A stretch of DNA of 19,778 nucleotides from positions 1 to 19,778 of the forward strand of contig CANRXD010000002.1 in the NCBI GenBank assembly GCA_947643685.1. Reading direction: 5' to 3'. The notes under the pieces were generated by a model that saw only the letters and a list, made by a program, of their open reading frames with translations, did no database searches and was not told the origin of the DNA. Both the position numbers and the translations under genes were made by a program. Of the stretch, positions 488 through 15,287 are shown in pieces. Numbering within the stretch: the stretch's first letter is position 1; each line of letters starts with the position of its first letter. Origin of the DNA: an uncultured Clostridium sp. (GTDB lineage Bacteria > Bacillota > Clostridia > Lachnospirales > Lachnospiraceae).

Positions 488-1081
488 ATGAGAGGAAAAG
501 GACTGACTATGGACGTGATCGTCAATGCCGCTGCAACTCTGGTGGTGGAAAAAGGATATAATAATTTTTCCGTCAGGGAGCTGGCGCAGAAGCTTGGGTG
601 CCAGGCGGCTTCCCTTTATAATCATATTGGCAGCTTTGATGATGTGAACCGGGAGGTAGGAAAGCTGGCTGCAAAACGGATGAATGACGAGCTGGAGGCT
701 GCCTCCATGGGAAAGGAGAGCGACAAAGCTCTGGAAGCACTGGCTCACGAATACCGGCATTTTGCGAAAAACAATTACCAGCTGTACCAGGCCATCATGG
801 GGCTTCCTGCCCTGGACCAGAATGACAGTCTGCGGGTGGGGAGGGAGAGCCTTCTTGTCATGAGAAAAGTGGTTCACCAGTATAAAATTTCAGAGGAGGA
901 TGCCGTCAACTTTTCCAGGTGCTTAAGAGGCGCTCTTCACGGCTTTGTCTCCTATGAGATGGCCGGGTATTATACCAGGAAGAATGTTCCGATAGAAGGA
1001 AGCTTCCGGTTTCTGATTCAGGGGCATATCGACTGGATACACCGGCTGGAGCAGAACGAAATGGAGAAAATGAAAAAGTAA
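488..1081 (+). CDS. TetR/AcrR-family regulator with WHG-type C-terminal domain
   Basis: This 197-residue protein is probably the local repressor. Residues about 8-55 form the TetR helix-turn-helix, with recognisable LVVEKGYNNFSVRELAQKLG and AASLYNHI segments. The remainder matches the WHG/TetR_C_33 ligand-binding type: its 'LYQAIMGLP' and 'ALHGFVSYEMAGYY' segments are typical of that group. The start is well placed after AAGGAGG at 478-484. Operator palindromes at its own promoter and in the promoter of the following operon (1133-1161) suggest autorepression plus control of operon 1. The effector is unknown. A CoA thioester or acid substrate of the pathway is plausible, but that is inference. 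Confidence 0.88.
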   Translation: MRGKGLTMDVIVNAAATLVVEKGYNNFSVRELAQKLGCQAASLYNHIGSFDDVNREVGKLAAKRMNDELEAASMGKESDKALEALAHEYRHFAKNNYQLYQAIMGLPALDQNDSLRVGRESLLVMRKVVHQYKISEEDAVNFSRCLRGALHGFVSYEMAGYYTRKNVPIEGSFRFLIQGHIDWIHRLEQNEMEKMKK

Positions 1082-1164: not shown

Positions 1165-1179
1165 ACTAACAACGTTAGT
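1165..1179. promoter_or_regulatory. TetR operator 3 over the transcription start (ACTAACAACGTTAGT)
   Basis: Near-perfect 15-bp palindrome four bases past the -10 box. It is centred 25 bp from operator 2, which would allow two dimers side by side. Confidence 0.7.
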
Positions 1180-1221
1180 TTTTTGATATATGGGAAACTT
1201 CAGTTCCCATATATCAAAAAA
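1179..1221 (+). repeat. 18-bp perfect leader hairpin near the mRNA 5' end
   Basis: Arms 1179-1196 and 1204-1221 pair perfectly around a 7-base loop. The 5' arm starts with T and the 3' arm ends with A, so no U tract follows the stem and it is not an intrinsic terminator. It would begin roughly ten bases after the predicted transcription start, a position typical of 5' stabilising stem-loops. A further 125 bases of leader (1222-1346) follow with no ORF or riboswitch I recognise. Confidence 0.65.
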
Positions 1222-1346
1222 GCAGCTGCACTGCGGCGGCGCACATGATGCACATAAGAAAAATGGCTGCCGGCAGGGCCGCGCTCCGGCGCAAATGTTT
1301 GCCAGGGCGCACACTTTTAAAACCTTAGAAGAAAGGAGTGTTTTAA

Positions 1347-2555
1347 ATGGCAGAAGGACCTTTAAGCGGAGTAAAGGTAGTGGAATACTGCGACTTTATT
1401 TCAGGACCATATTGTACAAAGCTACTTGCCGATCTGGGCGCAGAGGTAATTAAAATTGAGAGACCGGAAGGTGACTCGGCAAGAAAGAGAGGCCCGTTTT
1501 TACATGATAACCCGAATCCGGAGCTGTCCGGACTGTTTCTTTACCATAACACAAACAAGAAGGGTGTGACCCTGAATCTGGAATCACCCGCAGGCCGCAG
1601 CATTTTTAAAAAGCTGGCGGCGGAGGCAGATATTTTAGTGGAAGATACGGCACCGGGGACCATGGAGGAACTGGGCCTTAATTACGGGGAATTAAAAAAA
1701 GACAATGAAAATCTGATCATGCTTTCCCTGACGCCCTTTGGACAGACAGGGCCTTATAAAGATTACAAGGCATATTACCTGAATATTTACCATGCCAGCG
1801 GAGCCGGCTATGTGCTTCCGGCAGCGTCCCCCAACGCGGACAGAGAGCCCATAAAAGGCGGCGGCTATGTGGGAGAAAGCGACGTGGGCGTGTATGCGGC
1901 TGTGAGCCTCATGGGCGCTCTTTACTGGAGAAACGCAGGAGGCACCGGCCAGTATATCGACGTTTCCAAGCAGGAAGCCATGATGTGTCTGGAAAGAATG
2001 AACATTGTCCGTTACTATATGATCGGCTCCAGCCCGTCCCGTGTGGGCGTGAACCGTGTCCGGGATACGCTGTTACAGTGTAAAGACGGCGGGTATATCA
2101 TCGTGGTTCTCTATCCCCAGAAGCAGTGGGAGGGCATCATAAAAGCCCTTGGAAATCCCGACTGGGCCAATCATGCCCCTTTCCTTGAGCAGAAGGAGAG
2201 GGATAAACACTTTGAGGAAGTGAAGATGCACCTGCGTGAGGAGGCCATGAAATACAATACGGAAGAACTGTTCTTTAAGATTCAGGCGGAGGGAACGGCA
2301 TGTGCTCCCATCTGTTCCGCAGAGCAGGTATACAATTCGCCTCAGACTAAGGCCAGAGAGTTCTTCACGGAAATTGATCATCCGGCAGCGGGAAAGTTGA
2401 TGTATCCGGGGCTTCCCTATAAGCTTTCCACCATGACACCTTCCGGAAACCAGGGCGCGCCCCTTTTAGGACAGCACAACGAGGAGATTTACACAGAACG
2501 TCTTGGATATGCAAAAGAAGATCTGGTACGGTTAAAAGAAGCCGGAGTGATTTAG
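1347..2555 (+). CDS. Class III CoA-transferase (CaiB/BaiF family), paralogue A
   Basis: This 402-residue protein has the usual length for a formyl-CoA-transferase-like enzyme, which moves CoA between carboxylic acids. The N-terminal segment 'LSGVKVVEYCDFISGPYCTKLLADLGAEVIKIE' is the family nucleotide/CoA fold signature, split here as 'GPYCTKLLADLGAEVIKIE' at about residues 20-38. 'TGPYKDYKAYYLNIYHASG' and 'GTGQYIDVSKQEAM' also match. By hand alignment to formyl-CoA transferase, the catalytic Asp position holds Glu177 (GESD motif), with Asp179 nearby. The start follows GAAAGGAG (about 1331-1338). It is first in operon 1 and clearly diverged from the two 404-residue paralogues downstream, so it may use a different acid. 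Confidence 0.9.
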   Translation: MAEGPLSGVKVVEYCDFISGPYCTKLLADLGAEVIKIERPEGDSARKRGPFLHDNPNPELSGLFLYHNTNKKGVTLNLESPAGRSIFKKLAAEADILVEDTAPGTMEELGLNYGELKKDNENLIMLSLTPFGQTGPYKDYKAYYLNIYHASGAGYVLPAASPNADREPIKGGGYVGESDVGVYAAVSLMGALYWRNAGGTGQYIDVSKQEAMMCLERMNIVRYYMIGSSPSRVGVNRVRDTLLQCKDGGYIIVVLYPQKQWEGIIKALGNPDWANHAPFLEQKERDKHFEEVKMHLREEAMKYNTEELFFKIQAEGTACAPICSAEQVYNSPQTKAREFFTEIDHPAAGKLMYPGLPYKLSTMTPSGNQGAPLLGQHNEEIYTERLGYAKEDLVRLKEAGVI

Positions 2556-2571
2556 GAAAGGAGGAGGAACT

Positions 2572-3786
2572 ATGTTTCAGGATGCTTTAAAGGGAATCAG
2601 AATCGCAGATTTCAGCTGGGTATGGGCGGGCCCCTATGCCACCTCTCTCCTTTCTTATATGGGAGCGGAGGTCATTAAGATCGAGAGCCGGGGCCGTGTG
2701 GACCAGACGAGAAAGGGATCCATCATGAACGGGGACAATTTTAACGGCTACGATTCCTCCCCCACATTCAACAATGCCAACTTAAACAAGCAGAGCATTT
2801 CTATTGACATTACAAAGCCGGAGGGGGCCAGGATCGCCAGAAAACTGGTTTCCCAATGTGATATTGTGGTGGCCAACATGCGTCCAGGGAAAATGGCAAA
2901 GCTGGGCCTTGGCTATGAGGATTTTAAAAAAGTAAAAGAGGACATCATTGTTCTGGAATCCTCGGGGTTCGGAGCAACGGGCCCCTATAAGGGATTTGCG
3001 GGATTTGCGCCGATTTTTGCATCTTTCGGCGGCCTGGCTTATCTGACCGGATACGAGGACGGCGCCCCCAATGTGATGAGCGGCGTCCAGGACATGCGGG
3101 CGGCCACCACATCGGCCTTTGTTCTGATTGCGGCCCTTTTGCACCGCCAGAAGACAGGAGAGGGGCAGTACATAGATCTTTCTTCTTCCGAGTGCTTAAG
3201 CACTTTGGTGGGACCGGAATTAATGGAATATTCCATGAACCGGCGTTCCCCGTTCCGTCACGGAAATGAGGATGCCATCATGGCTCCCCATAACTGTTAC
3301 CGGACAAAGGGAGAAGATAAGTGGATCAGCATTGCCGTGGCGGACGATAAGGAGTGGGAAGCCCTTCGGAATGCCATGGGAGACCCGGAATGGGCCAGGG
3401 ATGAAAAGTACGGAAATGTGTTTGACCGCTGGCAGAACCGGAAGGAGCTGGATATCCGAATGTCCGAGTGGACAAAGGATTTCACCGCGTATGAGCTTAT
3501 GGAAAAGCTTCAGAAGGCGGGAGTGGCAGCCATGCCGTCCTTTGATGCCGAAGAAATTTTAAATGATGACCACACGAAGGCCAGGGAGTTATTTACAACC
3601 GTAGAGCATCCGGCTCTGGGAGAGCAGCATGTGATGAATCCGGCCTGGAAGTTTTCCGAAACTCCGGCCAGAATAAGAAAGCCGGGACCTCTTCTTGGGG
3701 AAGACAACCTGGATGTGTGTACAAAACTTCTCGGGATGACAGAAGAAGAGGTAAGAAAGCTGGAGGAAGCGCAGATTTTATGGTAG
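2572..3786 (+). CDS. Class III CoA-transferase (CaiB/BaiF family), paralogue B
   Basis: This 404-residue CoA-transferase starts at the ATG after AAAGGAGGAGG, 16 bases after the previous stop. The N-terminal 'IADFSWVWAGPYATSLL' and 'GAEVIKIESR' segments define the fold. The predicted catalytic aspartate is Asp174 in 'GVQD', upstream of 'HRQKTGEGQYIDLS'. It is almost a duplicate of the gene at 5199-6413: same length, same Asp position, and long shared runs such as 'GFAGFAPIFASFGGLAYLTG'. Together the pair brackets a hotdog hydratase gene, which suggests a local duplication. It may form a hetero-oligomer with C or handle a related acid (inference). Confidence 0.9.
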   Translation: MFQDALKGIRIADFSWVWAGPYATSLLSYMGAEVIKIESRGRVDQTRKGSIMNGDNFNGYDSSPTFNNANLNKQSISIDITKPEGARIARKLVSQCDIVVANMRPGKMAKLGLGYEDFKKVKEDIIVLESSGFGATGPYKGFAGFAPIFASFGGLAYLTGYEDGAPNVMSGVQDMRAATTSAFVLIAALLHRQKTGEGQYIDLSSSECLSTLVGPELMEYSMNRRSPFRHGNEDAIMAPHNCYRTKGEDKWISIAVADDKEWEALRNAMGDPEWARDEKYGNVFDRWQNRKELDIRMSEWTKDFTAYELMEKLQKAGVAAMPSFDAEEILNDDHTKARELFTTVEHPALGEQHVMNPAWKFSETPARIRKPGPLLGEDNLDVCTKLLGMTEEEVRKLEEAQILW

Positions 3787-3791
3787 GAACC

Positions 3792-3818
3792 GTGAAAAGC
3801 GCCGCAGGCGATTTTCAC
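3792..3818. repeat. Intergenic hairpin 1 (12-bp stem, one mismatch)
   Basis: Arms 3792-3803 and 3807-3818 pair with one mismatch around loop GCA, directly after the stop of CoA-transferase B. No U tract follows. It is the first of three successive hairpins before the hydratase gene. Confidence 0.5.
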
Positions 3819-3826
3819 CGTTGCCA

Positions 3827-3870
3827 GGTATACGGCCCAATCGCGAAGCGATTCTAAATGGCTGTATGCC
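3827..3870. repeat. Intergenic hairpin 2 (two-part stem)
   Basis: An outer 11-bp stem (3827-3837 with 3860-3870, including G-U pairs) encloses a 6-bp AATCGC/GCGATT stem (3839-3844 with 3848-3853) with loop GAA. Confidence 0.5.
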
Positions 3871-3901
3871 GTAACCGTTCAGGGGATATCTGAACGGTTA
3901 C
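3871..3901. repeat. Intergenic hairpin 3 (12-bp perfect stem), copy of the 184-206 repeat
   Basis: Arms 3871-3882 and 3890-3901 pair perfectly around a 7-base loop. The core CCGTTCAG...CTGAACGG is shared with 184-206. It directly abuts hairpin 2. The trio could be a processing or attenuation site that tunes expression of the genes on each side (inference). Confidence 0.55.
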
Positions 3902-3940
3902 CAGTTGTGAAAAAAGAAAGAATGAAAGGAGCAATTACAT

Positions 3941-5182
3941 ATGGCAGGAACGTATGACGAGAAAAATGACTGGGACCATCTCTCAGATGAAGACTGGAAC
4001 AAAAAACTGGATGAAAAGGTTGAGGAGTTTAACGGAGGCCGCGGAGAGGTTGTGATTCCGCCGCCGTCCTTCGCGGTCATGGATGATGAGTATGTAAGAG
4101 GCATTAACTACAAGTATGTAACCGAAGATTTGATCCGCCATTTTGCTGACGCGTGCGGAGATCCAAACCCCTTCTGGAGAGATCCCACATATATTCAGAG
4201 CACCCGCTGGGGCGGATTTATTGCACCGCCGTTATTTGAGACCTGCATCGCCTTTGGTTCCTCCTTTGGCGGACGTCTCAGGGTGCCTGGGATTGCCAGA
4301 CTGGCCGGCGGCAGCAAACATATCTATAAACAGCCCATCCGCCCCGGCGACAGTTTTACCATTTATGACAAATACGAAGGCTTTGTGGAGAAGGAGGTAA
4401 CAAACAAGCCGTACCGTATGTTCATTGAGAGCGCCCCCCGATATTATATCAATCAGCGGGATGAAGTGGCCGCCATTGAGGTTCACCGGAACATTTACAT
4501 GGCCACGCCTCCGGGAAAACGCGGCAAGAAGAAAGAAGCGAGAATGTACCAGGATAAGGTGAGAAAGCCTTACACCGATGAGCAGATCGAGATGATTCAC
4601 GCCGCCTATGACGACCAGCTGGCCGGAAAGAACCGCCGCGGCGCGAAGATCCGTTACTGGGAAGATGTGAATGTGGGGGATGAGATTCCCACTGTTATTA
4701 AGGGGCCGGTTGACGTATCTGATGCCTGCGCCCGTACCATGGTAAGCTGCTACCCTTATGCCTATGCCATCAAATGGGCTGTTATGAGGAATCATTTACA
4801 GGCGCATCCGAAGGATCCGGAGACCAATGAGTATATTCTTCGCCGTGACTGGCATTACACCGACCATGCGGCCCATCTGTTCGGTTACCCTTACGCAAAT
4901 TCCGCGGGTGCGCAGAATGAGATGATGCTGGTCCATGGAATCACCGACTGGATGGGAGATGACGGCTTTGTAAAATCCGCCGACTCCCAGGACAGAAGAA
5001 TGGTATTCTTCGGCGATATGACTTATGTAAAGGGCAAGGTTGCAAAGAAGTACATTGATGAGGACGGAGATCATGTGGTTCTTGTGAACGTCTGGGGAGA
5101 GAACCAGGACGGCGTGCTGCATACAAAGACAGATTACGTAGTTAAGCTGGTATCCAGGGAAGCTTACGACAAACGGCTTTAA
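3941..5182 (+). CDS. MaoC-like / FAS1-type double-hotdog hydratase-dehydratase
   Basis: This 413-residue protein has two hotdog folds and probably adds or removes water from an acyl-CoA. The N-terminal half (about 50-180) resembles the FAS1-like dehydratase region, with 'ACGDPNPFWRDPTYI' and 'GGFIAPPLFE' motifs. The C-terminal half (about 225-405) resembles the MaoC domain, with 'RDWHYTDHAAHLFGYP' giving the likely catalytic Asp/His. The first 40 residues are charged and not conserved-looking. The start follows AAAGGAG near 3925-3931. It sits between paired CoA-transferases, so its substrate is probably an enoyl-CoA or hydroxyacyl-CoA made by them (inference). Confidence 0.85.
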   Translation: MAGTYDEKNDWDHLSDEDWNKKLDEKVEEFNGGRGEVVIPPPSFAVMDDEYVRGINYKYVTEDLIRHFADACGDPNPFWRDPTYIQSTRWGGFIAPPLFETCIAFGSSFGGRLRVPGIARLAGGSKHIYKQPIRPGDSFTIYDKYEGFVEKEVTNKPYRMFIESAPRYYINQRDEVAAIEVHRNIYMATPPGKRGKKKEARMYQDKVRKPYTDEQIEMIHAAYDDQLAGKNRRGAKIRYWEDVNVGDEIPTVIKGPVDVSDACARTMVSCYPYAYAIKWAVMRNHLQAHPKDPETNEYILRRDWHYTDHAAHLFGYPYANSAGAQNEMMLVHGITDWMGDDGFVKSADSQDRRMVFFGDMTYVKGKVAKKYIDEDGDHVVLVNVWGENQDGVLHTKTDYVVKLVSREAYDKRL

Positions 5183-5198
5183 TGACGGAGGGAATCCG

Positions 5199-6413
5199 AT
5201 GTTTAAGGATGCATTAAAAGGGATCCGGGTTGCAGATTTCAGCTGGATCTGGGCAGGACCATACGCGGCCTCCCTTCTGGGCTACATGGGAGCGGAAGTC
5301 ATAAAGATCGAAAGCCGGGCCCGTATCGACCAGACGCGGAAAGGGACCATCATGGATACCGACAATTTTGACGGGCTCAATTACTCTCCCACCTTTAATA
5401 ATGCAAACCTGAATAAAAAGGGAGTCTCCATTGATATTTCAAAGCCTGAGGGAGCGGCTCTTGCCAGGCGGATTGTGGCCAAAAGCGACATTGTCGTATC
5501 CAACATGCGTCCCGGAAAAATGGAAAAGCTGGGACTGGGATATGAGGCTTTAAAAATGGTAAAAGAGGACATCATTATGATTGAGTCCTCCGGTTTTGGG
5601 GCCACAGGACCCTATAAGGGCTTTGCAGGTTTTGCCCCGATTTTTGCCTCCTTTGGAGGCTTGGCCTATCTGACCGGATACGGGGACGGCGAGCCCAACG
5701 TGATGAGCGGAGTCCAGGACTTAAGAGCAGGAACCCTTTCGGCATTCATTGTACTGGCAGCTCTTTTGCACCGCCAGAAGACGGGGGAGGGGCAGTACAT
5801 AGACCTTTCCTCGTCCGAAGCTTTAAGTACCCTGATCGGACCGGAGCTTATGGAGTTTACCATGAACGGACGAAGCCCGCACAGAAACGGAAATGAAGAC
5901 GCCATTATGGCGCCCCATGGCTGCTACCGCTGTAAGGGAGACGACAAGTGGATCAGCATTGCGGTGGGAAACGACAGGGAATGGAAGGCCCTCTGCAAAG
6001 TCATGGGAGAACCGGAATGGTGCAGGAAAAAAGAGTATGCGGATATGCCCGGACGGTGGAAGAACCGAAAGGAGCTGGATTTGCGGCTGGAAGAGTGGAC
6101 CGCAAAGCATACCCATTACGAGCTGATGGGGCGGCTTCAGGAAGCCGGGGTCGCGGCCATGCCGTCCTTTGATGCCGAGGAGATCCTGAGGGACCCTCAC
6201 ACGAAGGCAAGAAACCTGTTTACAGCCGTCCATCATCCGAAAATCGGCGATCAGGTGGTCATGAATCCGGCCTGGAGATTTTCAGAGACTCCGGCCCGTA
6301 TTACCAAGGCAGGGCCTCTTATGGGGGAAAGCAATGATGAAATTTTCAGCGGCCTTCTGGGAATGACTCCGGAAGAAATCGAAATGCTGAAGGAAGAAAA
6401 GATAATTTATTAG
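5199..6413 (+). CDS. Class III CoA-transferase (CaiB/BaiF family), paralogue C
   Basis: This 404-residue CoA-transferase is a close paralogue of the gene at 2572-3786. 'VADFSWIWAGPYAASLLGYM' and 'GAEVIKIESR' mark the N-terminal fold, and Asp174 in 'GVQDLRAG' is the predicted catalytic residue forming an acyl-aspartyl anhydride. The start is 16 bases after the hydratase stop, with GGAGG upstream. The differences from B are scattered rather than clustered, consistent with an old duplication and retained function in both copies. The acid donor and acceptor are not deducible. Confidence 0.9.
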   Translation: MFKDALKGIRVADFSWIWAGPYAASLLGYMGAEVIKIESRARIDQTRKGTIMDTDNFDGLNYSPTFNNANLNKKGVSIDISKPEGAALARRIVAKSDIVVSNMRPGKMEKLGLGYEALKMVKEDIIMIESSGFGATGPYKGFAGFAPIFASFGGLAYLTGYGDGEPNVMSGVQDLRAGTLSAFIVLAALLHRQKTGEGQYIDLSSSEALSTLIGPELMEFTMNGRSPHRNGNEDAIMAPHGCYRCKGDDKWISIAVGNDREWKALCKVMGEPEWCRKKEYADMPGRWKNRKELDLRLEEWTAKHTHYELMGRLQEAGVAAMPSFDAEEILRDPHTKARNLFTAVHHPKIGDQVVMNPAWRFSETPARITKAGPLMGESNDEIFSGLLGMTPEEIEMLKEEKIIY

Positions 6414-6463
6414 GTCCGGGCACTGAGGGAAGAAACGAAGTCCGGACAGGAGGAGGTAACAAT

Positions 6464-7387
6464 ATGTTTACAGATTATGATGTAATGATTATCGGTTCCG
6501 GCTGTGCCGGTCTGGCTGCAGGCATCTATGCCGCCCGGGGCGGATATGAGACCTGCATTCTGGAAAAGGAGGCCATGGGCGGAGAGATGATGAGCCGCCA
6601 GCTCATTGAAAACTATCCGGGATTTGCAGAAGGCATTATGGGGCCGGACCTGGCAAGCCAGATGCTGGAGCAGGCATCCAACGCAGGCGCTGAGTGCGAG
6701 ACCGGAGAGGTCACATCCATTCAGGATAAGGGGAGCTATAAGATTATTAAGACCACAAACGGTTCTTATACCTGTAAGGGCGTGATACTGGCTTCCGGCT
6801 CCCATCCAAGGCTTTTAAATGTGCCGGGCGAAAAGGAGCTGTCAGCCAGGGGCGTATTTTACTGTGCGACCTGTGACGGTGCACAGTGCGCCGGAAAGCC
6901 GGTGGTTGTGGCGGGAGCCGGGGATTCCGGAATCACAGAGGCTCTTCTTTTAGAGAAGCTTGGCTGTAAGGTGACTGTGGTGGAGTTCATGGAGACGCCG
7001 AAGGCCTCTAAGGTCATGCTTGACAGGGCCGAAGAGAATCCCAATATTGAACTTCTCTGTAATACAAAGATCACCGGAATCCAGGGAGAAGACTGGGTGA
7101 CAGGTGTGGAAATCGAAGACAGGGAAAGCAAAGAGAAGAGAGTACTTGATGTGGAAGGCATTTACATAAGAATCGGACTTCTTCCCAACACTTCTTACGC
7201 AGAGGGCTGTGTGGAGTTAGCGCCCAGTGGACACGTGGTGGTGGACGGAAATATGAAGACATCGGCGGACGGCATCTATGCCGCAGGCGACATCCGCACA
7301 AATTCTCCGGCCCAGATGGCAACGGCTGTGGGGGACGGCGTTGTGGCCTATATGAATCTGAACCGCTACTTAAGTACACTGGAATAA
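6464..7387 (+). CDS. Thioredoxin-reductase-like flavoprotein
   Basis: This 307-residue member of the low-molecular-weight thioredoxin reductase family transfers electrons through FAD to a CxxC disulfide. The FAD-binding 'GSGCAGL' is at 11-17, the redox 'CATC' at 134-137, a second Rossmann 'GAGDSG' at 151-156, and 'YAAGDI' near the C-terminus. The usual NADPH-phosphate motif HRRxxxR is absent: the second strand reads 'VTVVEFMETPKAS' instead. An acidic residue after the strand points to NADH, or to a non-NADPH donor such as ferredoxin. It lies just upstream of the selenoprotein and is its likely redox partner (inference). The start follows AGGAGG, about ten bases upstream. Confidence 0.9.
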   Translation: MFTDYDVMIIGSGCAGLAAGIYAARGGYETCILEKEAMGGEMMSRQLIENYPGFAEGIMGPDLASQMLEQASNAGAECETGEVTSIQDKGSYKIIKTTNGSYTCKGVILASGSHPRLLNVPGEKELSARGVFYCATCDGAQCAGKPVVVAGAGDSGITEALLLEKLGCKVTVVEFMETPKASKVMLDRAEENPNIELLCNTKITGIQGEDWVTGVEIEDRESKEKRVLDVEGIYIRIGLLPNTSYAEGCVELAPSGHVVVDGNMKTSADGIYAAGDIRTNSPAQMATAVGDGVVAYMNLNRYLSTLE

Positions 7388-7398
7388 CCGGTTTTCAA

Positions 7399-7439
7399 TG
7401 GATTTTTACCGGTAACTGTGAGAACACAAAACAGTTATG
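7399..7439 (+). repeat. 41-nt repeat copy in the leader of the selenoprotein gene
   Basis: By eye it matches 11021-11061 at 33 of 41 positions, both starting TGGATTTTT and ending GTTATG. The inner 28 bases (7412-7439) match the inverted copy at 36-63. It lies immediately upstream of the AAGGAG ribosome site at 7441-7446, so it may form a structure in the leader. Confidence 0.6.
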
Positions 7440-7453
7440 AAAGGAGATAAAAC

Positions 7454-9229
7454 ATGAGCAGCGCAAATCAGTATGATGTTGTGTGGCCCGCGACCCCGAG
7501 TACCGTACAGGGAGCCAAACTTGCAAAACGGCTGGATACCCTGGAGGGAAAGGTAGTTGCCGAGCTGTGGGACTGGGTCTTTAAAGGAGACATCATGTTC
7601 GAGGCCTTTGAGGCGGAGCTTAAAAAGATGTATCCGGGAATCAAGCTCATAAGCTGGAGAGAATTCGGCGAGATTCACGGGGCCAATGAAAGGGAGGTAC
7701 TTGCTGAACTTCCAAAGAAATTCAAGGAATTCGGCGTAGATGCAGTGATCTGCGGCGTTGGCTGCTGAGGAAGCTGTATCGCCGCCGTGACGCGTGCAAG
7801 TATTTTAGTAGAAAAACTTGGGATCCCCACCGTAACGCTCTGCTGTGACGGATTTAAGACAGCAGGAAGCTTTACCGCAAAGGGTGAGGGCTATCCCAAT
7901 CTTCCGTTCGCAACTCATCCGGGACATGTAAATACAACCCCCAATGAGCAGGTATATAAAAATGCCGTGGATATTATGCTGGACATGGTGATCAAAGGCC
8001 TGACCGTGCAGCCAAAGGATGCGAAACCGAAGAAAGAACCGAAACCGCGAGATATTATTTTCTCCGGCAGTTATGAAGAAGTGAATGAGTATTTCCTTGA
8101 GAAGGAATGGAGCGAGGGACTTCCCATCGTGCCGCCGACTCTGGAAAAGGTGGATGCGTTCATGAAATTCACCAACCGGAAACCCGATGAGGTTCTTGGA
8201 ATTGTAAAGCCGGAGAACCGGAAAGCTACCGTCTGGAGCGTCGCTGTCAATGGGGTGATGAGCGGATGCCGTCCGGAGTACATGCCGATTCTCGTGGCGA
8301 TTACGGAAGCAATGTGCGATCCCTATTTCGCCCAGGAAAATCTGGGTCACACACCGGCTACCGAATGTATCATAATCCTCAGCGGAAGTCTTGTCAAGGA
8401 ATTAAATTTCAACTGCACCCAGGGTGCGCTGCGCCCGGGCTTCCAGGCCAACACCAGTATCGGACGTTTCTGGAGAATGTATCTGAGAAATGTCTGCGGT
8501 TTCCTGCCCCATAAGACGGACAAGGGCTGTTACGGAGACAATTTCCGAATCGTACTGGCGGAAAATGACGAATATCTGGAAGAGATCGGTTGGCAGCCTT
8601 ACCGTGTTGACAGAGGCTTCGCGAAGGAAGACAATGTGATTACCGTTATGACTCTGACAGAGAGAACACAGGCAATCGAGTGCGGCTGGCCGACGGCGGA
8701 GGGAATTCTTACGGCAATCGAAAAGCGTATGGCGGATAACCATATGTTTATTCAATTTTTCTTCCGGGGACAGCATATGATGCCCCTGGTGATTCTGACC
8801 CCCACTATTATCGACTCCCTGATCCGAGAGGGCTATACGAAGGAAACGGTGAAGGAGCACTTCTTTAAAGGGGCCAAATTCCGCCTGTGGAATTTAAGCA
8901 ACCGTCTGGCGGAGCGTTTTGTGACCGGTCTGGAGCAGGGCAACTGGCCTCAGTTTATCGGCACAAAGGAAGAGTATGGCGACTTTAAAGTAAATGCAGA
9001 CGGCAAACTGGAATTTTATGATGAAAACGGCAAATTGACCGATATGGGAGAGAACCGGTTTATTCAGATGATGGCCGACCCCAATGATTTCCAGCTGATC
9101 GTCAGCGGAGATCCGGCCCGTGACCATGCGATCATCGGCGCCCAGAACGGTTTCATGGGATGGCCCACCAGCAAAAAGGTGGAACTTCCGGAGAATTGGG
9201 AGGAACTTTTAAAGAACGTCAGAAAATAA
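7454..9229 (+). CDS. UGSC-type selenoprotein, UGA (7766-7768) read as selenocysteine
   Basis: A single frame runs from ATG 7454 (RBS AAGGAG) to TAA 9229, broken only by a UGA at codon 105. Reading it as Sec gives Cys104-Sec105-Gly-Ser-Cys108 and a 591-residue protein. This matches the motif of what I know as the 'UGSC family (seleno)protein'. The first domain (about 1-190) has 'VDAVI', then the Sec motif, then 'LVEKLGIPTVTLC', a pattern reminiscent of the Sec segment of the glycine and proline reductase B-type subunits (inference). The second domain (about 205-590) starts near 'DIIFSGSYEEV', includes 'GLPIVPPTLEKV', and has no function I can name. The downstream GTG at 7787 has no ribosome site. 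A SECIS-like hairpin follows the UGA. The neighbouring flavoprotein is a likely electron partner. Confidence 0.9.
7773..7801 (+). promoter_or_regulatory. Bacterial SECIS-like hairpin directly after the UGA
   Basis: Folded by hand: 7780-7782 pair with 7792-7794, U7779 is bulged, and 7775-7778 pair with 7795-7798 (one G-U). Two more pairs below (7774-7800, 7773-7801) flank a bulged A7799. The 9-base apical loop (7783-7791) contains GU at 7787-7788. A bulged U below a short upper stem with GU in the loop is the pattern recognised by SelB in E. coli fdhF. Counting the U of UGA as 1, the bulge is at 14 and GU at 22-23, close to 17 and 23-24 in fdhF. Confidence 0.65.
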
Positions 9230-9248
9230 TGGATTATAGGAGGGGATT

Positions 9249-9620
9249 ATGAGCGAAACTACTATTTTACTGCTTTGTCTGGCAGCAATTGTTATTTCCA
9301 TCGCCATCTGCTTTAAGACCGGCATCAATATGGGCCTTATCGCAATGACATTTGCGTTTTTAATCGGCTGTCTGTTCATGGGAGAAAAGGCAGCGGCAAC
9401 GGGAATCAATACGGTGGCCCTCTACGCAGCGGCCCAGATCGGAGCCCTTGCCACACCGATTTCGCCGTTTTCCACCGCCGGAGCCCAGTTTGTGGGACTG
9501 GCTCCCGATGATAAGTTAAGTGACACTCTGGTAAAACAGCAGTTCCTTCTTGCCATTGTGATGATGGCGGCCACTACCGTTGCGGCACTGTTTGGACTGT
9601 GCGGTATTTTTAAGCTTTAA
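9249..9620 (+). CDS. Short MatC-like membrane protein, apparent internally deleted transporter
   Basis: This 123-residue hydrophobic protein has an excellent ribosome site (AGGAGGGG, 9238-9245). Segments at about 4-22, 26-45, 53-70 and 97-120 are long enough to span the membrane. Residues 1-45 ('FKTGINMGLIAMTFAFLIGC') resemble the N-terminus of dicarboxylate carriers of the MatC family. Residues about 65-90 ('ISPFSTAGAQFVGLAPDD') resemble their C-terminal region. Family members have roughly 400 or more residues, so the middle appears to be missing in frame. It may be a remnant or a small membrane protein with another role. The intact transporter for this pathway would then be elsewhere. Identification is from memory of the family. 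Confidence 0.6.
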   Translation: MSETTILLLCLAAIVISIAICFKTGINMGLIAMTFAFLIGCLFMGEKAAATGINTVALYAAAQIGALATPISPFSTAGAQFVGLAPDDKLSDTLVKQQFLLAIVMMAATTVAALFGLCGIFKL

Positions 9621-9654
9621 CGGAACAGTTTAAGTTCCGGCGCCTTTGCCGGAA
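9621..9654. repeat. Two mutually exclusive intergenic hairpins
   Basis: CGGAAC/GTTCCG (9621-9626 with 9634-9639) overlaps TTCCGGC/GCCGGAA (9635-9641 with 9648-9654). The two cannot form together. They lie between the membrane-protein stop and the ACAGGAG ribosome site of the nitroreductase, so they could influence its translation. No T run is present. Confidence 0.4.
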
Positions 9655-9668
9655 ACAGGAGAAACTCT

Positions 9669-10256
9669 ATGAATGCTGTGATTGAAACCATATTAAAACG
9701 CCGGAGCGTCAGAGCCTATCAGGAGAAGCAGATTACAAAGGAGGAGCTGGATGCCCTTCTTACCTGCGCCCTGTATGCACCCACCGGAGGAAATTTACAG
9801 AACAGCCGGTTCCTTGTAATTCAAAACCCGAAGATCCTGGAAGAGTTAAACGGGGTGATTCGCCATGAGCTGGCCTCCAGAGAACCTGTGGAGGGTGAAA
9901 TGATGGCGAAGGGAATCCGAAGGGCCCGCCAGGACGGATATCACTTTATTTTTCATGCCCCCACACTCATAAGCGCCGTGGCCCCGGGAGACCATGAAAA
10001 CAGCATGGCTAACTGCTGCGTGGGCCTTGAAAATATTCAGATTGCTGCCGTATCCCTGGGACTTGGGGCATGCTGGAGCAATCAGCCCCACTGGCTGACA
10101 GATGTACCGGCTGTAAGGGAGATCTTCGGACGGCTGGGTTTAAAAGAAAATGAAGATATTTTCGGAAGTGTTTCCGTGGGGTATCCGGCCTTTGTGGCAA
10201 AGCAGGCCCCGGCCAGAAAAGAAGGGCGGATTTTCCTGGACCGGGAGCTGCCGTAA
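9669..10256 (+). CDS. Nitroreductase-family FMN oxidoreductase
   Basis: This 195-residue protein has the usual length for an FMN-dependent nitroreductase-family enzyme. 'ILKRRSVRAY' (8-17) is the N-terminal FMN-phosphate-binding signature, and 'CALYAPTGGNLQNSRFLVIQ' (34-53, split across the second helix) is typical. 'AAVSLGLGACWS' and 'GSVSVGYPAF' complete the fold. Members reduce nitro groups, quinones, enones or other activated double bonds, or act as dehalogenases. It is last in operon 1 on the plus strand, meeting aroM tail to tail. In this setting it may reduce an unsaturated intermediate, but the sequence does not settle this. Confidence 0.88.
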   Translation: MNAVIETILKRRSVRAYQEKQITKEELDALLTCALYAPTGGNLQNSRFLVIQNPKILEELNGVIRHELASREPVEGEMMAKGIRRARQDGYHFIFHAPTLISAVAPGDHENSMANCCVGLENIQIAAVSLGLGACWSNQPHWLTDVPAVREIFGRLGLKENEDIFGSVSVGYPAFVAKQAPARKEGRIFLDRELP

Positions 10257-10320
10257 GATTTTATACCAGTGTATGGATACATTTATTTTCAGGCCGGTTA
10301 TTTGGCGAAGTGTCAATGTG

Positions 10321-10986
10321 TCAACACACCAGCTCACAGATCATACGGGCCGTGAGAGTGCGGGGAAGGATCACAGGCTTTCCTGTAAGGGCCTGTATCC
10401 GTTCCTTCATTTCCACCGTATAGCCGATACAGTCAAGTAAAATAAGATCGGTTTCTTCAGGAATGGCCCTGGCGGCTTTAAGGACTTCGTCGGGGCCGTC
10501 GTAAGGAGAAACGGCGATCATATGGACCTGTCCGGCATGGGGAGACCATTTCTTTATTCCCTGGTCCATCTGCTCTCTGGCAGGAGTAAGGACCGTAAGG
10601 AAACGGCTTCCGACGGCGGGAATCAGGCCGGAAAGAAGCTTGTTGGGAAAGATAAGGGGAACATGGGATTTAAAATTATCCGGAAATTCTCCGGTACATA
10701 AAAAGAGGATCAGAGAGACCTCCTTTTTCTCCAGCTCATGAATACAGGTCTGAAGCCGCGGCAGAACATAGGACTCCCCAAAGGCCACAGATGTTTTGTC
10801 GGCCAGTCTGGATACGAGGACATGATCGCCGGGCAGGGGACGGAACGCGGCAATTTCTTCTTTTGTAAGACCGTCAAGACCGCCCATCTGGATAATTTCA
10901 ATGGATTTTCCTAAAATTGGTTCCATTTCAGGAATAAGATCGGTTCGCGGTGCCTGTCCTACCGTAATTGCGCCAATTTTTTTCAT
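10321..10986 (-). CDS. aroM: AroM-family protein
   Basis: This 221-residue protein starts at the ATG at 10986, five bases after AAAGGAG. An in-frame GTG six bases earlier is less likely. 'KKIGAITVGQAPRTDLIPEM' at the N-terminus and 'LLDCIGYT' near the C-terminus are the AroM signatures. AroM was named from the E. coli aroL-aroM locus and has no established biochemical function. Its fold is probably related to the Asp/Glu racemase group (inference). It is the only internal minus-strand gene and separates operons 1 and 2. Its company of acid-isomerising enzymes suggests a role on a related substrate, but that is speculation. Confidence 0.85.
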   Translation of the reverse strand: MKKIGAITVGQAPRTDLIPEMEPILGKSIEIIQMGGLDGLTKEEIAAFRPLPGDHVLVSRLADKTSVAFGESYVLPRLQTCIHELEKKEVSLILFLCTGEFPDNFKSHVPLIFPNKLLSGLIPAVGSRFLTVLTPAREQMDQGIKKWSPHAGQVHMIAVSPYDGPDEVLKAARAIPEETDLILLDCIGYTVEMKERIQALTGKPVILPRTLTARMICELVC

Positions 10987-11020
10987 AGACACTCCTTTCC
11001 TTGAACGAAGTAATCGTTTG

Positions 11021-11061
11021 TGGATTTTTGCCCGTAGCTGTGAGAGTACGGAACGGTTATG
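11021..11061 (+). repeat. 41-nt repeat copy in the aroM/prpF divergent spacer
   Basis: The second full copy of the element at 7399-7439 (33 of 41 matches by eye). Its inner part (11034-11061) also matches 36-63 in the opposite orientation. It lies between divergent genes, downstream of the aroM promoter and upstream of the isomerase gene. Confidence 0.6.
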
Positions 11062-11069
11062 CTATTTGG

Positions 11070-11099
11070 ATTTTAGCACAGGCCCGGCATGGTTTTCAA
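11070..11099 (-). promoter_or_regulatory. Candidate promoter of aroM (TTGAAA-18-TAAAAT)
   Basis: On the minus strand TTGAAA (11099-11094) and TAAAAT (11075-11070) are 18 bases apart. The leader to the aroM ATG would be about 75 nt and include the 41-nt repeat. No equally good promoter is visible for the plus-strand genes in the same spacer. Confidence 0.45.
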
Positions 11100-11126
11100 G
11101 AAGAACAAAGAAAAGAGGTAGAAACG

Positions 11127-12293
11127 ATGTATAAGCCAAACAGAAAAATTCCCTGCGTCTATATGCGCGGCGGCACCAGCAAAGCGGTTTTCTTTCATGA
11201 TAAGGACCTTCCAGAGGATGCGGCAGAGCGTGATAAAGTGATCTTAAGCGCATTTGGAAGTCCGGACAGACGTCAGATCGACGGCATGGGCGGAGCCAAC
11301 ACCTCCACCAGCAAGGTGGCGGTGATTAAAAAGAGTGAACGGCCGGGCATCGATGTGGATTATGATTTCGGCCAGGTAGATGTCAATGCCCCCATTGTGG
11401 GAAAGACCATGAACTGCGGAAATATTTCTTCCGCCGTCGGTCCCTTTGCCATTGACGAGGGCCTGGTAAAGGCAGTGGAGCCCATGACCGAGGTACATAT
11501 CTTTAACACAAATACACAGAAGGAAATTATCGCACAGGTTCCCGTAAAGGACGGGCGTGCCGTTACCGAGGGCGACTTTGCCATTGACGGCGTTCCGGGT
11601 ACAGCGGCAAAGGTGACCTTAAAATTTGTCGCCCCCCAGGGGGCGGCATCCGGAAAGCTGCTTCCCACGGGCCAGGGGAAGGATAGTATTGAAATTGAGG
11701 GAAAGAACTATGAATACAGCTTTGTGGATGCTGCCAATCCGGTGATCTTTGTACATCCGGAGGACTTTGGCGTAAAGGGAACAGAAATTCCGTCGGAGTT
11801 CAACGCCCTTCCAAACTGCAAGGAGATCTGCCAGATTTTGGAAATCATCCGCGGAACCGGGGCCGTTACTTTAGGTTTTGCCAAAGATTTAGAGGACGCC
11901 AGAGTCAACAGTCAGACACTTCCCAAGATCGCCTTTGCCACAAAGCCGGTGGACTACACGGCAGGAAGCGGCAAAGAAATCAAGGCGGGAGATGTGGACC
12001 TGGTGGGGAGACTGTTCTCCGTGGGTATGAAAATGATCGACGCCTACATGGGAACAGGAGCCATCTGTACCATCACGGCTGCCAATACACCGGGCACTAT
12101 TGTAAACGAAATCGCCAGAGAATCCCTGGGAACCGACCGGATTGAACACCTCCGTATCGGCCATCCCTGGGGCATCATGGATGCCTATGCGGATTTAAAG
12201 GTTCATGAGGACGGATCCCACGAGGTTTTAAGCGGAAATCTGGACAGAACCGCCAGACGCATCATGGAAGGTTTCGTTTACGTACGGGATTAA
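11127..12293 (+). CDS. PrpF-family acid double-bond isomerase
   Basis: This 388-residue protein, counted from ATG 11127, follows AGAGGT at 11114-11119. A longer frame from 11001 would run through the repeat and lacks a ribosome site. 'YMRGGTSKAVFF' (12-23), 'GMGGANTSTSKVAV' with Lys63, and 'MNCGNISSAVGPFA' with Cys97 match PrpF, the fold of diaminopimelate epimerase. Relatives isomerise 2-methylaconitate, or tautomerise 4-oxalomesaconate. It opens operon 2 with MmgE/PrpD next. The expected role is moving a double bond in an unsaturated tricarboxylate (inference). Confidence 0.9.
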   Translation: MYKPNRKIPCVYMRGGTSKAVFFHDKDLPEDAAERDKVILSAFGSPDRRQIDGMGGANTSTSKVAVIKKSERPGIDVDYDFGQVDVNAPIVGKTMNCGNISSAVGPFAIDEGLVKAVEPMTEVHIFNTNTQKEIIAQVPVKDGRAVTEGDFAIDGVPGTAAKVTLKFVAPQGAASGKLLPTGQGKDSIEIEGKNYEYSFVDAANPVIFVHPEDFGVKGTEIPSEFNALPNCKEICQILEIIRGTGAVTLGFAKDLEDARVNSQTLPKIAFATKPVDYTAGSGKEIKAGDVDLVGRLFSVGMKMIDAYMGTGAICTITAANTPGTIVNEIARESLGTDRIEHLRIGHPWGIMDAYADLKVHEDGSHEVLSGNLDRTARRIMEGFVYVRD

Positions 12294-12391
12294 CATGCAG
12301 AATTAACATGCGGGATTAACGCGTGGGGGTAACGCGCGGCATGAAAAGAATACGGCCCGGAAAGTCCGAAAGACAGGAGGAAAAAGAAAGG

Positions 12392-13759
12392 ATGCTGACG
12401 GAGCGATTTGCCGATTTTATTTATGATACCAATTTTGAGGATCTGCCAAAGAACATTGTTTCCCTGGCAAAGGAGCGGATTCTGGATTCCGTGGGAGCCA
12501 TCCTGGCAGGGGCCGGAAACTGGGCTTACAGGGATAAGTTTCTGGCAGCCTGCAAAGCGCAGGGATTGGGCGACTGTTCCGCTTTCACCACGGGAGATTT
12601 GAAATTTCCGGCGGCCCGGGCGGCCATGATCGACGCTACCTTCGGACATGCGGTGGAGCTGGACGACGGTCATAAATTTGCGGGGGCCCACGCGGGAACC
12701 GCCGTGGTTCCCGTAGCCTTAACCCTGGCCCGCCAGAACGGACTTTCCGGACGGGATGTGATCACCTCTGTGGTGCTGGGATATGACATTGTATACAGGA
12801 TTGCGGCCGCCATGGCGCCCCACCAGATTGATAAGGGCTTTCATCCCACCAGCAACGACGACACACTGGGAGCGGCGGCCACGGCCGGGAAACTTCTTTG
12901 CCTCACAAAGGAGCAGCTTGCAAACGCCCTGGGGCTTGCAGGGCTTTATGCGTCCGGACTTATGGAGGCCACAGTCACAGGACAGCTTTCCAAATGCGTC
13001 ATGGTGGGAAATTCCGCTGCCAGCGGAATGGCTGCCGTTTATTACGCGAAAGAAGGTATGGAAGGGACCATCAGCGTTTTTGAAGGAAAAGATGGCTTCT
13101 TCGCGGCAAAATCAAAGGATGTGAATGCAGACGCCGTCCTGGAGGGACTTGGAGAGAAATTCGTGATCACCGATACATACAGCAAGATGTATCCCACCTG
13201 CCGCCATGCACAGCCCGCCATCGAAGGCGCGCTGAATCTGATGGAGGAGTATGGATTCGGCCCGGAAGATGTGGACCATGTGTGGGTGGGAACCCATGAG
13301 GTGGCTTATACGCTGACCGGAAAAATAAAGAAGCCGAAGGATTCCGGCGAGGCAAAGTTCAGCTCTGCCTATGGGATTGCCATTGCCCTTTATGAGAAGG
13401 GCTTCGGCGTCTGCCATCTGAATCCGGAATACACAGAGAATCCCAAATATCTGGAGCTGGCGAACCGTGTTACCGTGGAACAGGACCCGGATGTCCAGGC
13501 CGTGTATCCCACAAAGCGGGGCGCAAAGGTAAAGATCTTTTTAAAGGATGGAAGAGAGCTGTCCACAGAGGTTTATGATTTAAAGGGTTCGCCCAACAAC
13601 CCGGTGGGATTTGAGGAGATAAAAAATAAATTCGTGGCCAATGTGAAAAATCTGATGACAGAAGAAGACTTAAAAAATCTGATCGACAGGATCATGAGCC
13701 TGGAAACCATGGATTCGGTGGAGCCGATCATGGAGATTCTGACAAAACCAATCGTATAA
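12392..13759 (+). CDS. MmgE/PrpD-family dehydratase-like protein
   Basis: This 455-residue protein is counted from ATG 12392, which follows ACAGGAGG (12373-12380). A GTG at 12323 would add 23 poorly conserved residues. The family includes 2-methylcitrate dehydratase, cis-aconitate decarboxylase and iminodisuccinate epimerase. Signatures include 'ERILDSVGAILAGAGNW' near the N-terminus, 'DATFGHAVELDDGH' with 'AGAHAGTAVVPVAL', and 'MYPTCRHAQPAIEGALNLM' in the middle. Because the family catalyses different reactions, dehydration/hydration or decarboxylation of a tricarboxylate are both possible. PrpF is encoded just upstream, as in methylcitrate-type clusters. Confidence 0.9.
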   Translation: MLTERFADFIYDTNFEDLPKNIVSLAKERILDSVGAILAGAGNWAYRDKFLAACKAQGLGDCSAFTTGDLKFPAARAAMIDATFGHAVELDDGHKFAGAHAGTAVVPVALTLARQNGLSGRDVITSVVLGYDIVYRIAAAMAPHQIDKGFHPTSNDDTLGAAATAGKLLCLTKEQLANALGLAGLYASGLMEATVTGQLSKCVMVGNSAASGMAAVYYAKEGMEGTISVFEGKDGFFAAKSKDVNADAVLEGLGEKFVITDTYSKMYPTCRHAQPAIEGALNLMEEYGFGPEDVDHVWVGTHEVAYTLTGKIKKPKDSGEAKFSSAYGIAIALYEKGFGVCHLNPEYTENPKYLELANRVTVEQDPDVQAVYPTKRGAKVKIFLKDGRELSTEVYDLKGSPNNPVGFEEIKNKFVANVKNLMTEEDLKNLIDRIMSLETMDSVEPIMEILTKPIV

Positions 13760-13762
13760 ATT

Positions 13763-13860
13763 GTAACAGTATCCGGAGTTTGCCGGCCGCCAAAATCAGG
13801 CAGGCCTGTCCCTGGCTTGTTGCTGTTACGTGAATAAGGACAGGAAAGCCAGTCTCCGGA
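13763..13860. repeat. Intergenic region with several interleaved inverted repeats
   Basis: GTAACAG/CTGTTAC (13763-13769 with 13823-13829), CCTGTCC/GGACAGG (about 13805-13811 with 13838-13844) and TCCGGAG/CTCCGGA (13772-13778 with 13854-13860) interleave, so they would form alternative or pseudoknotted folds. No terminator-like T run follows. They separate the prpD-like gene from leuC-like and could be a regulatory leader or degenerate repeats. Confidence 0.4.
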
Positions 13861-13881
13861 ATGTGGATGGAGAGGAAGAAC

Positions 13882-15159
13882 ATGGGAAAAACAGCGATTG
13901 TTAAGATTATGGAGCGGGCGGCCGGACGCAGTGTCTCGGTGGGAGAGAGAGTCTGGTGCAATGTGGATCTGGCTTCCGCCCGTGACTTCGGAGGGGCCAA
14001 CTGTGTGCTCCAGTTTGAAAAGGAGATGGGAAAAGACGCAAAGGTCTGGGACCCGGATAAAATTGCGTATACCTTTGATTTGCAGGCGCCGTCCCATTCA
14101 GAGAAGGTATCCAATAATCAGAAAATCATCCGTGAGTTTGCCAAAAGACAGGGCATCCGCCATGTGTTTGACATTAACCATGGCATCGGCCAGCACGTGA
14201 TGCTGGAGGCGGGGCTCATAAAGCCGGGCGATGTGGTCCTGGGAACGGACAGCCATATGAATCTTCTTGGAGCCGTGGGAGCCTTTGCCACAGGAAACGG
14301 GAACTCTGATATTGCGGCGGCATACATTAATGGCACCTGCTGGTTCCGCGTGCCGGAGACCATGAAAATCGAAGTGACGGGAACCTTTAAAAAGGGAGTC
14401 TGCATGCGGGATCTTCTGACGAGAATCGTCGGAGATCTGGGCGCCGGAGGCATGGATTTCCTGGCAGTGGAATTTACGGGAGAAACCATTGAGAGAGCCA
14501 CCCTGGCGGAGCGTATTACCCTCTGCTCCATGGTGACGGAAATGAGCGGAAAGGTGCCGCTCATCATGCCAAACGGCGAGGTGCTGGAATGGCTCTGTGA
14601 GCGTGCCGGAGAAGAAGTGAGAGAACGGGTAAGAACCCTGTCCGCGGATCCGGATGCCGAATACTGCCGGGTACTCCATTATGATGTGACCGATCTGGAG
14701 CCCCTCGCGTCCTGTCCCGATGCGCCGGACAATGTAAAGCCGGTTTCTGAGATCGCGGGGACCAGGGTGGACCAGATTCATATCGGTTCCTGTTCCAACG
14801 GAAGATACGAAGACTTTAAAGCGGCCTATGAGGTCCTTATGGCAGGGGGAGGAAAAATCGCTCCGTCCATTCGCGCCATCATTACCCCCAGTACCACCGA
14901 GGTACAGCTTAGGCTGGCCCGCGAGGGGATTCTGGCTGCATTTCTGGAGGCAGGCATTGTCTGCACGAACCCCACCTGTTCTCTCTGCACCGCGGAGCAT
15001 TACGGAGCGCTGCCGTCAGGCGACATCGGCTGTTCCACCACCAACAGGAACTTCATCGGAAAAGTGGGAAAGGGGAGTCACACCTACCTGATGAGCCCTA
15101 TGTCGGCTATGGCCACGGCAGTCCGGGGCTGTATCACGGATCCCAGGGAGATACTTTAA
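13882..15159 (+). CDS. Aconitase-family hydro-lyase large subunit (LeuC-like)
   Basis: This 425-residue protein, counted from the ATG after GAGAGG (an in-frame ATG 21 bases earlier is less supported), is the [4Fe-4S] large subunit of a hydro-lyase. Cluster ligands are probably Cys304 ('IGSCSNGR'), Cys366 and Cys369 ('NPTCSLC'). 'GTDSHMNLLGAVG' (121-133) and 'GCSTTNRNFIGKVG' (373-386) are classic. With the small subunit next to it, the enzyme adds water to or removes it from a branched di- or tricarboxylate. Known relatives include isopropylmalate isomerase, homoaconitase and dimethylmalate dehydratase. No other leucine genes lie nearby, so a catabolic role is more likely (inference). Confidence 0.88.
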   Translation: MGKTAIVKIMERAAGRSVSVGERVWCNVDLASARDFGGANCVLQFEKEMGKDAKVWDPDKIAYTFDLQAPSHSEKVSNNQKIIREFAKRQGIRHVFDINHGIGQHVMLEAGLIKPGDVVLGTDSHMNLLGAVGAFATGNGNSDIAAAYINGTCWFRVPETMKIEVTGTFKKGVCMRDLLTRIVGDLGAGGMDFLAVEFTGETIERATLAERITLCSMVTEMSGKVPLIMPNGEVLEWLCERAGEEVRERVRTLSADPDAEYCRVLHYDVTDLEPLASCPDAPDNVKPVSEIAGTRVDQIHIGSCSNGRYEDFKAAYEVLMAGGGKIAPSIRAIITPSTTEVQLRLAREGILAAFLEAGIVCTNPTCSLCTAEHYGALPSGDIGCSTTNRNFIGKVGKGSHTYLMSPMSAMATAVRGCITDPREIL

Positions 15160-15175
15160 AAGTGTTGCACGGCAG

Positions 15176-15213
15176 CCATGAGACGGCGCATGCTTGCATG
15201 CAGAGTCTCATGG
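15176..15213. repeat. Hairpin between large and small subunit genes
   Basis: Arms 15176-15184 and 15205-15213 (CCATGAGAC/GTCTCATGG) pair perfectly. The 20-base loop contains GCATGC-TT-GCATGC, a second palindrome. The two subunit genes are separated by 128 bases, unusual for a tight pair. The hairpin could stabilise or separate the mRNA halves. No T run follows. Confidence 0.5.
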
Positions 15214-15287
15214 ATATCGGGCAATCGACTTTCGTGGCATGTCCGTTTAATAAAGAAGGCCGCCAGCGGCGGTGATTGGAGGAAACG

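Follow-up and report, generated by a model that had tools for sequence, protein, structure and literature searches.

A probable UGSC selenoprotein fused to a conserved C-terminal domain in an uncultured Clostridium, with a candidate relationship to the GrdB subunit of glycine reductase

Introduction

The UGSC family of selenoproteins was surveyed in 2008 in the Global Ocean Sampling data, and the relevant passages of that paper (PMC2398784) report 255 selenocysteine (Sec) sequences of the family, abundant in aquatic samples, and call the UGSC domain probably thioredoxin-like. They also describe the fusion of UGSC to a conserved unknown domain (UGSC/Unknown_1), and record that the unknown domains fused to UGSC generally contain at least one conserved Cys. 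In the passages that the 2022 and 2026 reviews devote to it, the family is catalogued without a function. A UG(T/S)C motif is likewise found in a remotely homologous domain of GrdB/PrdB (glycine, sarcosine, betaine and D-proline reductases) and of FarB, which is linked to fluoroacetate. Cleavage of the C–F bond of fluoroacetate has been proposed for a GrdB-like pair in the part of PMC10838667 that deals with it, so GrdB-like domains need not be amine-limited. No link between UGSC and GrdB is stated in the passages on UGSC and its fusions in PMC2398784, in those on UGSC and at 12 of 21 places with GrdB-related terms in PMC13188914, or in those on UGSC and glycine reductase in PMC9312934.

Here we describe a UGSC fusion gene in a 19,778-nucleotide stretch of DNA from an uncultured Clostridium sp. 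of the Lachnospiraceae (GenBank assembly GCA_947643685.1, contig CANRXD010000002.1, positions 1 to 19,778), referred to in its entirety as the window. Like the 2008 fusions described in PMC2398784, the encoded protein joins a UGSC domain to a conserved unknown domain, and Unknown_1, as it is presented there, is likely to be the C-terminal domain of the window protein; going by the same account, a UGSC selenoprotein fused to an unknown domain is already catalogued and is no new kind. New leads here are a remote relation of the Sec domain to GrdB, a thioredoxin reductase (TrxR)-like neighbour, the loss of a set of redox residues in some paralogues, and a C-terminal domain that lacks a Pfam or NCBIfam match above cut-off.

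Results

Very probable selenocysteine at an in-frame UGA

The frame at 7454–9229 is open save for one internal stop-type codon, TGA at 7766–7768, around which the translation reads ...GVGC-U-GSC... in identical phase up- and downstream. An earlier note on this DNA, made from the letters alone, had read the same Cys-Sec-Gly-Ser-Cys in one frame and had proposed Sec at the UGA with a single fused product. None of 2000 base shuffles of 7769–9226 kept its 486 codons open. Reading by translation table 11 splits the frame into products of 104 amino acids (7454–7768) and 480 amino acids (7787–9229), which is the split that the note had expected of ordinary gene callers. Its effect can be seen in the databases, which contain headless homologues: 51 of the 120 listed (from 2722) start at an MTR/VTR stretch directly after the UGA column. 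The note was slightly wrong in stating that the downstream part lacks a ribosome site, as a GAGGA string overlaps the UGA, starting after its T, and precedes GTG 7787; this is a weak look-alike, the first letters of which are forced by the TGA-GGN codons.

A scan of genome contigs gave 78 loci, a non-random sample in that they rank highest among at least 582 confirmed relatives. Together with the window these provide 79 genes, in which the codon for residue 105, as read by tblastn, is TGA in 75 and TGC in 4, with TAA and TAG absent. Each of the four TGC (Cys) forms (L011, L021, L022 and L023) is one continuous gene. The same regions also contain 16 weaker copies, with TGA in 13, TGC in 2 and GGC in 1; second UGA-bearing fusion copies lie within the same loci in L012 (15730–17436) and L067 (996–2687). 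A true stop is disfavoured because variation to TAA or TAG would be expected and the Cys forms would not run through. The homologues align through the UGA, as the note had suggested checking, with Sec or Cys at the column and conservation on both flanks; instead of ending here as separate genes, the outcome that it had set against its own proposal, the Cys forms continue. UGA 7766–7768 very probably encodes Sec, and the gene a single fused product of 591 residues, much as had been claimed.

Codon constraint and a hairpin downstream of the UGA

Codon bias was assessed in all 75 TGA genes, with expectations drawn from those same genes. The codons compared were the commonest and were picked after inspection, so the following contrasts are somewhat inflated: just after the UGA, ACG was used in 62/70 genes (27.4 expected) and GTG in 66/75 (33.3 expected), with further bias in CCC at +5 (63/65; 20.2 expected), GCC at +6 (66/75; 29.3 expected), TTG at +8 (40/52; 6.2 expected) and CGG at +9 (67/75; 15.2 expected). 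Strong constraint of this kind on synonymous codons after the UGA is what an RNA element would be expected to leave behind.

A hairpin resembling a selenocysteine insertion sequence (SECIS) lies in this region, with a loop of 6 nt and a UGA-to-loop spacing of 17 nt in the window. The bacterial SECIS (bSECIS) model, as set out in a 2026 review (PMC13188914), has a loop of 3–9 nt, a stem of 4–16 bp, G as one of the first two loop bases, a UGA spacing of 16–37 nt and an energy ≤ −7.5 kcal/mol; the window hairpin agrees with it in loop, stem, G position and spacing. Across an alignment of 62 sites (the main UGA site of 61 among the 75 genes, plus a second copy of L067), a six-pair stem (columns 15–20 with 27–32) was paired in 94.1% of cells, compared with 23.2 to 50.6% when the partner was slid. 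The main register of the stem was present in 66 of the 75 genes and a bulged one, whose definition followed inspection of the window, in 8, giving 74/75 with either. At in-frame control positions of the same genes, a stem with G as first or second loop base occurred in 324/13955 cases.

Several results weigh against the hairpin. G occupies the second loop position in 75/75 genes; a Val codon that all of them share starts at this base, so the invariance is possibly protein-driven. TGC at +3 (57/75; 62.1 expected) and GCC at +10 (35/71; 27.3 expected) were unbiased. Stretches 41 to 51 nt long folded at −7.0 kcal/mol and the hairpin by itself at −5.9, both short of the bSECIS value; out of 200 shuffles, 144 to 180 folded as well as the window stretch. 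RNAalifold, run on the 62 rows, returned 3 pairs with zero compensatory changes; two-sided changes were seen in 1/6 stem pairs, and some slid versions covaried better. A scan of the window against Rfam at gathering level gave no match. With no real backing from covariation, the case for the hairpin comes from conservation, codon bias and pairing relative to slid controls. We consider it close to certain that the UGA is read as Sec by SelB, aided by the hairpin just downstream.

Selenium machinery in the window's own and related genomes

A genome devoid of Sec machinery is what the earlier note had set against its proposal, and this is not the case here. The window's own genome (G000) encodes SelD (389.7 bits), itself UGA-bearing in MTSAAGUAAK (L006, contig C34), as well as a GrdE–GrdB pair in which GrdB has a UGA (L093, contig C192). 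The gene beside that for SelD presumably encodes a YedF-like protein. On the unfavourable side, searches of this genome, which is 59.94% complete, gave nothing over cut-off for SelA, SelB or tRNA-Sec. In the same-genus genome G001, selA, selB and tRNA-Sec stand together on one contig.

SelA was over cut-off in 47 of 50 tested fusion-bearing genomes, missing from those of L008, L011 and L027, of which L011 is a Cys form. Where the UGA form is the main copy, 46/48 genomes had it, versus 34/196 in the window's order, a background that is not lineage-matched since many of the 48 are labelled Proteobacteria. SelD lies immediately upstream of the fusion gene in L016, and two of the 32 fusion loci that were scanned, L018 and L064, also carry tRNA-Sec.

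The N-terminal domain and its relation to GrdB

The window protein belongs to Pfam PF24696 (UGSC), which it matched over residues 9–178 at 119.3 bits (gathering cut-off 25). It fell below the cut-off of the NCBIfam equivalog NF041046 (UGSC_fam; 54.5 bits, cut-off 125), a model of 147 positions beyond which the window protein runs on for ~400 residues.

Alignment of the Sec domain with GrdB by hhalign gave E 2e-7 and a probability of 93.7 over 105 columns, with Sec placed on Sec, and the best of 60 column-shuffled controls reached 27.5; as a point against, this comparison used few, shallow sequences, C in place of U, and shuffled controls only. These profile alignments support a distant relationship between the Sec domain and the catalytic domain of GrdB from glycine reductase. 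Over model residues 28–190, the listed structural neighbours are parallel α/β folds other than the thioredoxin fold, from a list in which absence excludes nothing. The full model had no Foldseek match at E ≤ 0.001 in a PDB copy and viral models. Sequence searches of solved structures yielded only chance-level rows for P0001 and A2, and none for the GrdB profile. Unlike GrdB systems, the window protein is fused in one chain, and the fusion loci extend, going by their labels, to Alpha- and Betaproteobacteria, Chloroflexota, Paenibacillus and a Streptomyces.

Redox residues and GGGASG paralogues

Residues 104/105/108/131 were compared in 65 aligned proteins, of which 42 have C-U/C-C-C, 16 have G-G-G-T and 5 have gaps at these positions; in the remaining two, P0083 and P0087, C104 and C108 are intact, with Leu at 105 and Ser at 131. 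The G-G-G-T proteins are GGGASG paralogues, which retain the C-terminal domain with Cys272 and have lost the redox set. From this pattern of co-loss, Cys131 travels with the Sec centre and Cys272 does not. An intact EIHG stretch was present in 31 of the 120 listed homologues, 22 of GGGASG type and 9 of Cys type. In L008, labelled a Lachnospiraceae bin, three fusion paralogues share one contig, namely a TGC form (662–2362), a GGGASG form (5250–6890) and a UGA form (9863–11611), and this arrangement suggests that the redox-dead paralogues are partner subunits.

The C-terminal domain

The second domain, for which the note could name no function, had no match above cut-off in Pfam or NCBIfam; in searches of both at E up to 1, only chance-level rows appeared, apart from a weak UGSC row for two of the 30 members. 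Foldseek rows 1–14 for this domain were all fumarate hydratases, at weak E values (1.0e-3 to 4.4e-2) and with TM scores ≤0.24 relative to the query and ≤0.31 relative to the target. Stand-alone genes for the C-terminal domain lie just downstream of the fusion in L063, L071 and L077, and the domain may therefore also work as a separate subunit.

Gene neighbourhood

Coordinates of the fusion gene, its elements and its neighbours are collected in Table 1. CoA-transferases, a MaoC-like protein and a flavoprotein do lie beside the fusion, as the note had observed, and what it drew from this context, a selenium-dependent step acting on an acid or an acyl-CoA, is plausible. Parts of this set are also found at the fusion loci of Desulfosporosinus (L009; MaoC-like, TrxR-like and MatC), Paenibacillus thalictri (L010; two CaiB, MaoC-like, TrxR-like and MatC), an Anaerolineales bin (L013; MaoC-like, TrxR-like and two CaiB) and a deltaproteobacterial bin (L015; MaoC-like, two CaiB and a Tct carrier).

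Table 1. Features of the fusion gene and its surroundings in the window
Feature	Position	Strand	Remarks
UGSC fusion selenoprotein gene	7454..9229	+	591 residues with Sec105; TAA stop included
Shine-Dalgarno-like AAAGGAG	7440..7446	+	AAAGGAGAT; few bases 5′ of ATG 7454 (likely start)
N-terminal UGSC domain, putative remote relative of GrdB catalytic domain	7454..8020	+	Residues 1–189; PF24696 match 9–178
Sec105 UGA codon (very probable)	7766..7768	+	TGA in 75/79, TGC in 4/79 genes
SECIS-like hairpin	7781..7797	+	5 bp, one bulged U; apical loop 7786–7791 (CGUGAC, G second)
480-amino acid ORF expected from ordinary gene calling	7787..9229	+	GTG start; annotation artefact
Cys131 codon	7844..7846	+	Lost with C104/U105/C108 in GGGASG paralogues
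C-terminal domain	8027..9226	+	~400 residues, invariant Cys272; no Pfam/NCBIfam match above cut-off
TetR-type regulator	488..1081	+	
CaiB/BaiF type III CoA-transferase 1	1347..2555	+	Similarity below curated cut-offs of named enzymes
CaiB/BaiF-like CoA-transferase 2	2572..3786	+	Named for its resemblance to transferase 1 and to homologous loci
MaoC-like/FAS1_DH_region protein	3941..5182	+	Probable acyl-CoA hydratase
CaiB/BaiF-like CoA-transferase 3	5199..6413	+	By resemblance
TrxR-like flavoprotein	6464..7387	+	CATC redox motif; candidate electron donor
MatC-like dicarboxylate carrier	9249..9620	+	Internal in-frame deletion
Nitroreductase-family flavoprotein	9669..10256	+	

Neighbours within 5 kb were counted in the 46 loci having 5 kb on both sides. 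A TrxR-like gene was present in 21 and an MmgE/PrpD-like gene in 12. CaiB-like genes were found in 7 and MaoC-like genes in 9 of these loci, so the acyl-CoA context is not general, a point against the mechanism proposed below, and only the TrxR-like link is broad. The motif CAxCD(G/A) occurs in 29 of 30 listed TrxR-like frames, the window included. The window protein is regarded as a relative of thioredoxin reductase because it scored 318.1, compared with a cut-off of 343.45 for the true enzyme.

Two size-limited gene sets were also compared, a near set of 136 genes from 56 loci (two of 138 omitted) and a far set of 140 genes from 41 loci. In more distant loci, Pyr_redox_2 was matched by 17/136 near genes and lay outside the 25 families listed for the 140 far genes (lowest count 2). 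SelB winged-helix domains were found in 4/136 near genes. The tricarboxylate receptor TctC, which is not clearly enriched (30/136 near versus 23/140 far), was rejected as evidence of a functional neighbour.

In the window's order the fusion was found in 2 of 295 genomes, the second match being 27% identical and without the stop, and it was not found in the same-genus G001. Such rarity would be expected of an accessory trait.

Discussion

We put forward, with confidence that is evenly balanced, that the 591-residue selenoprotein, driven by the TrxR-like protein, reductively cleaves a bond next to a carboxylate or acyl-CoA group in the manner of GrdB. Sec105 lies at the junction of strand 97–104 and helix 108–121 in the N-terminal domain, and electrons would pass from NAD(P)H through the neighbouring TrxR-like flavoprotein to the selenol centre. 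By analogy with GrdB, the selenol would attack the carbon adjoining the carboxylate or acyl-CoA and expel a hetero-atom group, and the bound intermediate would be freed as the selenol is re-reduced via Cys108 and/or Cys131. The C-terminal domain, with its invariant Arg, Asn, Asp and Glu residues and Cys272, may hold and activate the anionic substrate in cis. Judging from the gene context, the CaiB CoA-transferases and the MaoC-like protein could then pass the product into acyl-CoA catabolism.

A number of observations speak against this proposal. Its chemistry, substrate and product are all predicted from the GrdB analogy and gene context. The protein missed the curated cut-offs of the GrdB/PrdB models (TIGR04483, 19.3 against 300 bits; TIGR01918, 12.3 against 65.45 bits; NF040794, 12.2 against 800 bits), and the third Cys of GrdB (UxxCxxC) is missing from it. 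It has no adjoining partner of GrdE/PrdA type, the sole PF09338 match in its own genome being located before GrdB on C192 and not on C2, and hhalign detected no relation between its C-terminal domain and GrdE.

The Sec protein might instead be a general thiol/disulfide oxidoreductase or peroxide-repair protein that is reduced by the TrxR-like flavoprotein, which we consider rather unlikely. Such a role would account for the UxxC motif and the TrxR-like neighbour, and is in keeping with passages of the 2008 and 2026 papers that group UGSC with thioredoxin-like redox selenoproteins. It fits poorly with the profile relation of the Sec domain to GrdB, with the large conserved C-terminal domain, and with the acyl-CoA and carrier genes that adjoin the fusion in several loci of Firmicutes, Chloroflexota and Deltaproteobacteria; the model neighbours over residues 28–190 are parallel α/β rather than thioredoxin folds, a point of inconclusive weight. 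More doubtful is a selenol serving as a metal ligand or non-redox nucleophile in a dicarboxylate hydratase, lyase or isomerase whose activity lies in the C-terminal domain. The weak fumarate hydratase matches that fill the first 14 Foldseek rows point that way, as do the GGGASG paralogues, in which the C-terminal domain and Cys272 are kept without the redox set. That UGA 7766 is a true stop between two genes of 104 and 480 codons, possibly translationally coupled, agrees with the table 11 reading and the GAGGA string after the UGA but is highly improbable given the continuous Cys forms of L011, L021, L022 and L023, the 75/79 TGA codons with zero TAA/TAG, the codon constraint and the co-occurrence of SelA.

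Extending the proposal of GrdB-like reductive cleavage beyond the window, we would suggest, only tentatively, that UGSC fusions form a widespread single-chain class of GrdB type, in which a substrate-activating domain replaces GrdE, a dedicated TrxR-like protein acts as direct electron donor, C–X bonds of carboxylates or acyl-CoAs are cleaved reductively, and the GGGASG paralogues are non-catalytic partners. If this single-chain reading were true, such chemistry would reach well outside the amino-acid fermenters. The GrdB link, the TrxR-like donor and, in some genomes, the CoA-transferases and carboxylate carriers narrow the function of UGSC to a few assays.

Other observations in the window

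Two smaller observations concern the genes downstream of the fusion. In the MatC-like carrier (9249–9620), residues 1–49 match 1–49 and residues 48–123 match 372–446 of the L008 homologue; the deletion is either real or an assembly artefact. A separate tricarboxylate cluster at 10321–19057 comprises genes for PrpF-like, MmgE/PrpD-like, aconitase-type large subunit, amidohydrolase 2 and citrate-lyase-like CitD proteins, together with others named by eye, which we take to be an AroM-like protein (first, on the minus strand), an aconitase-type small subunit, CitE and CitF.
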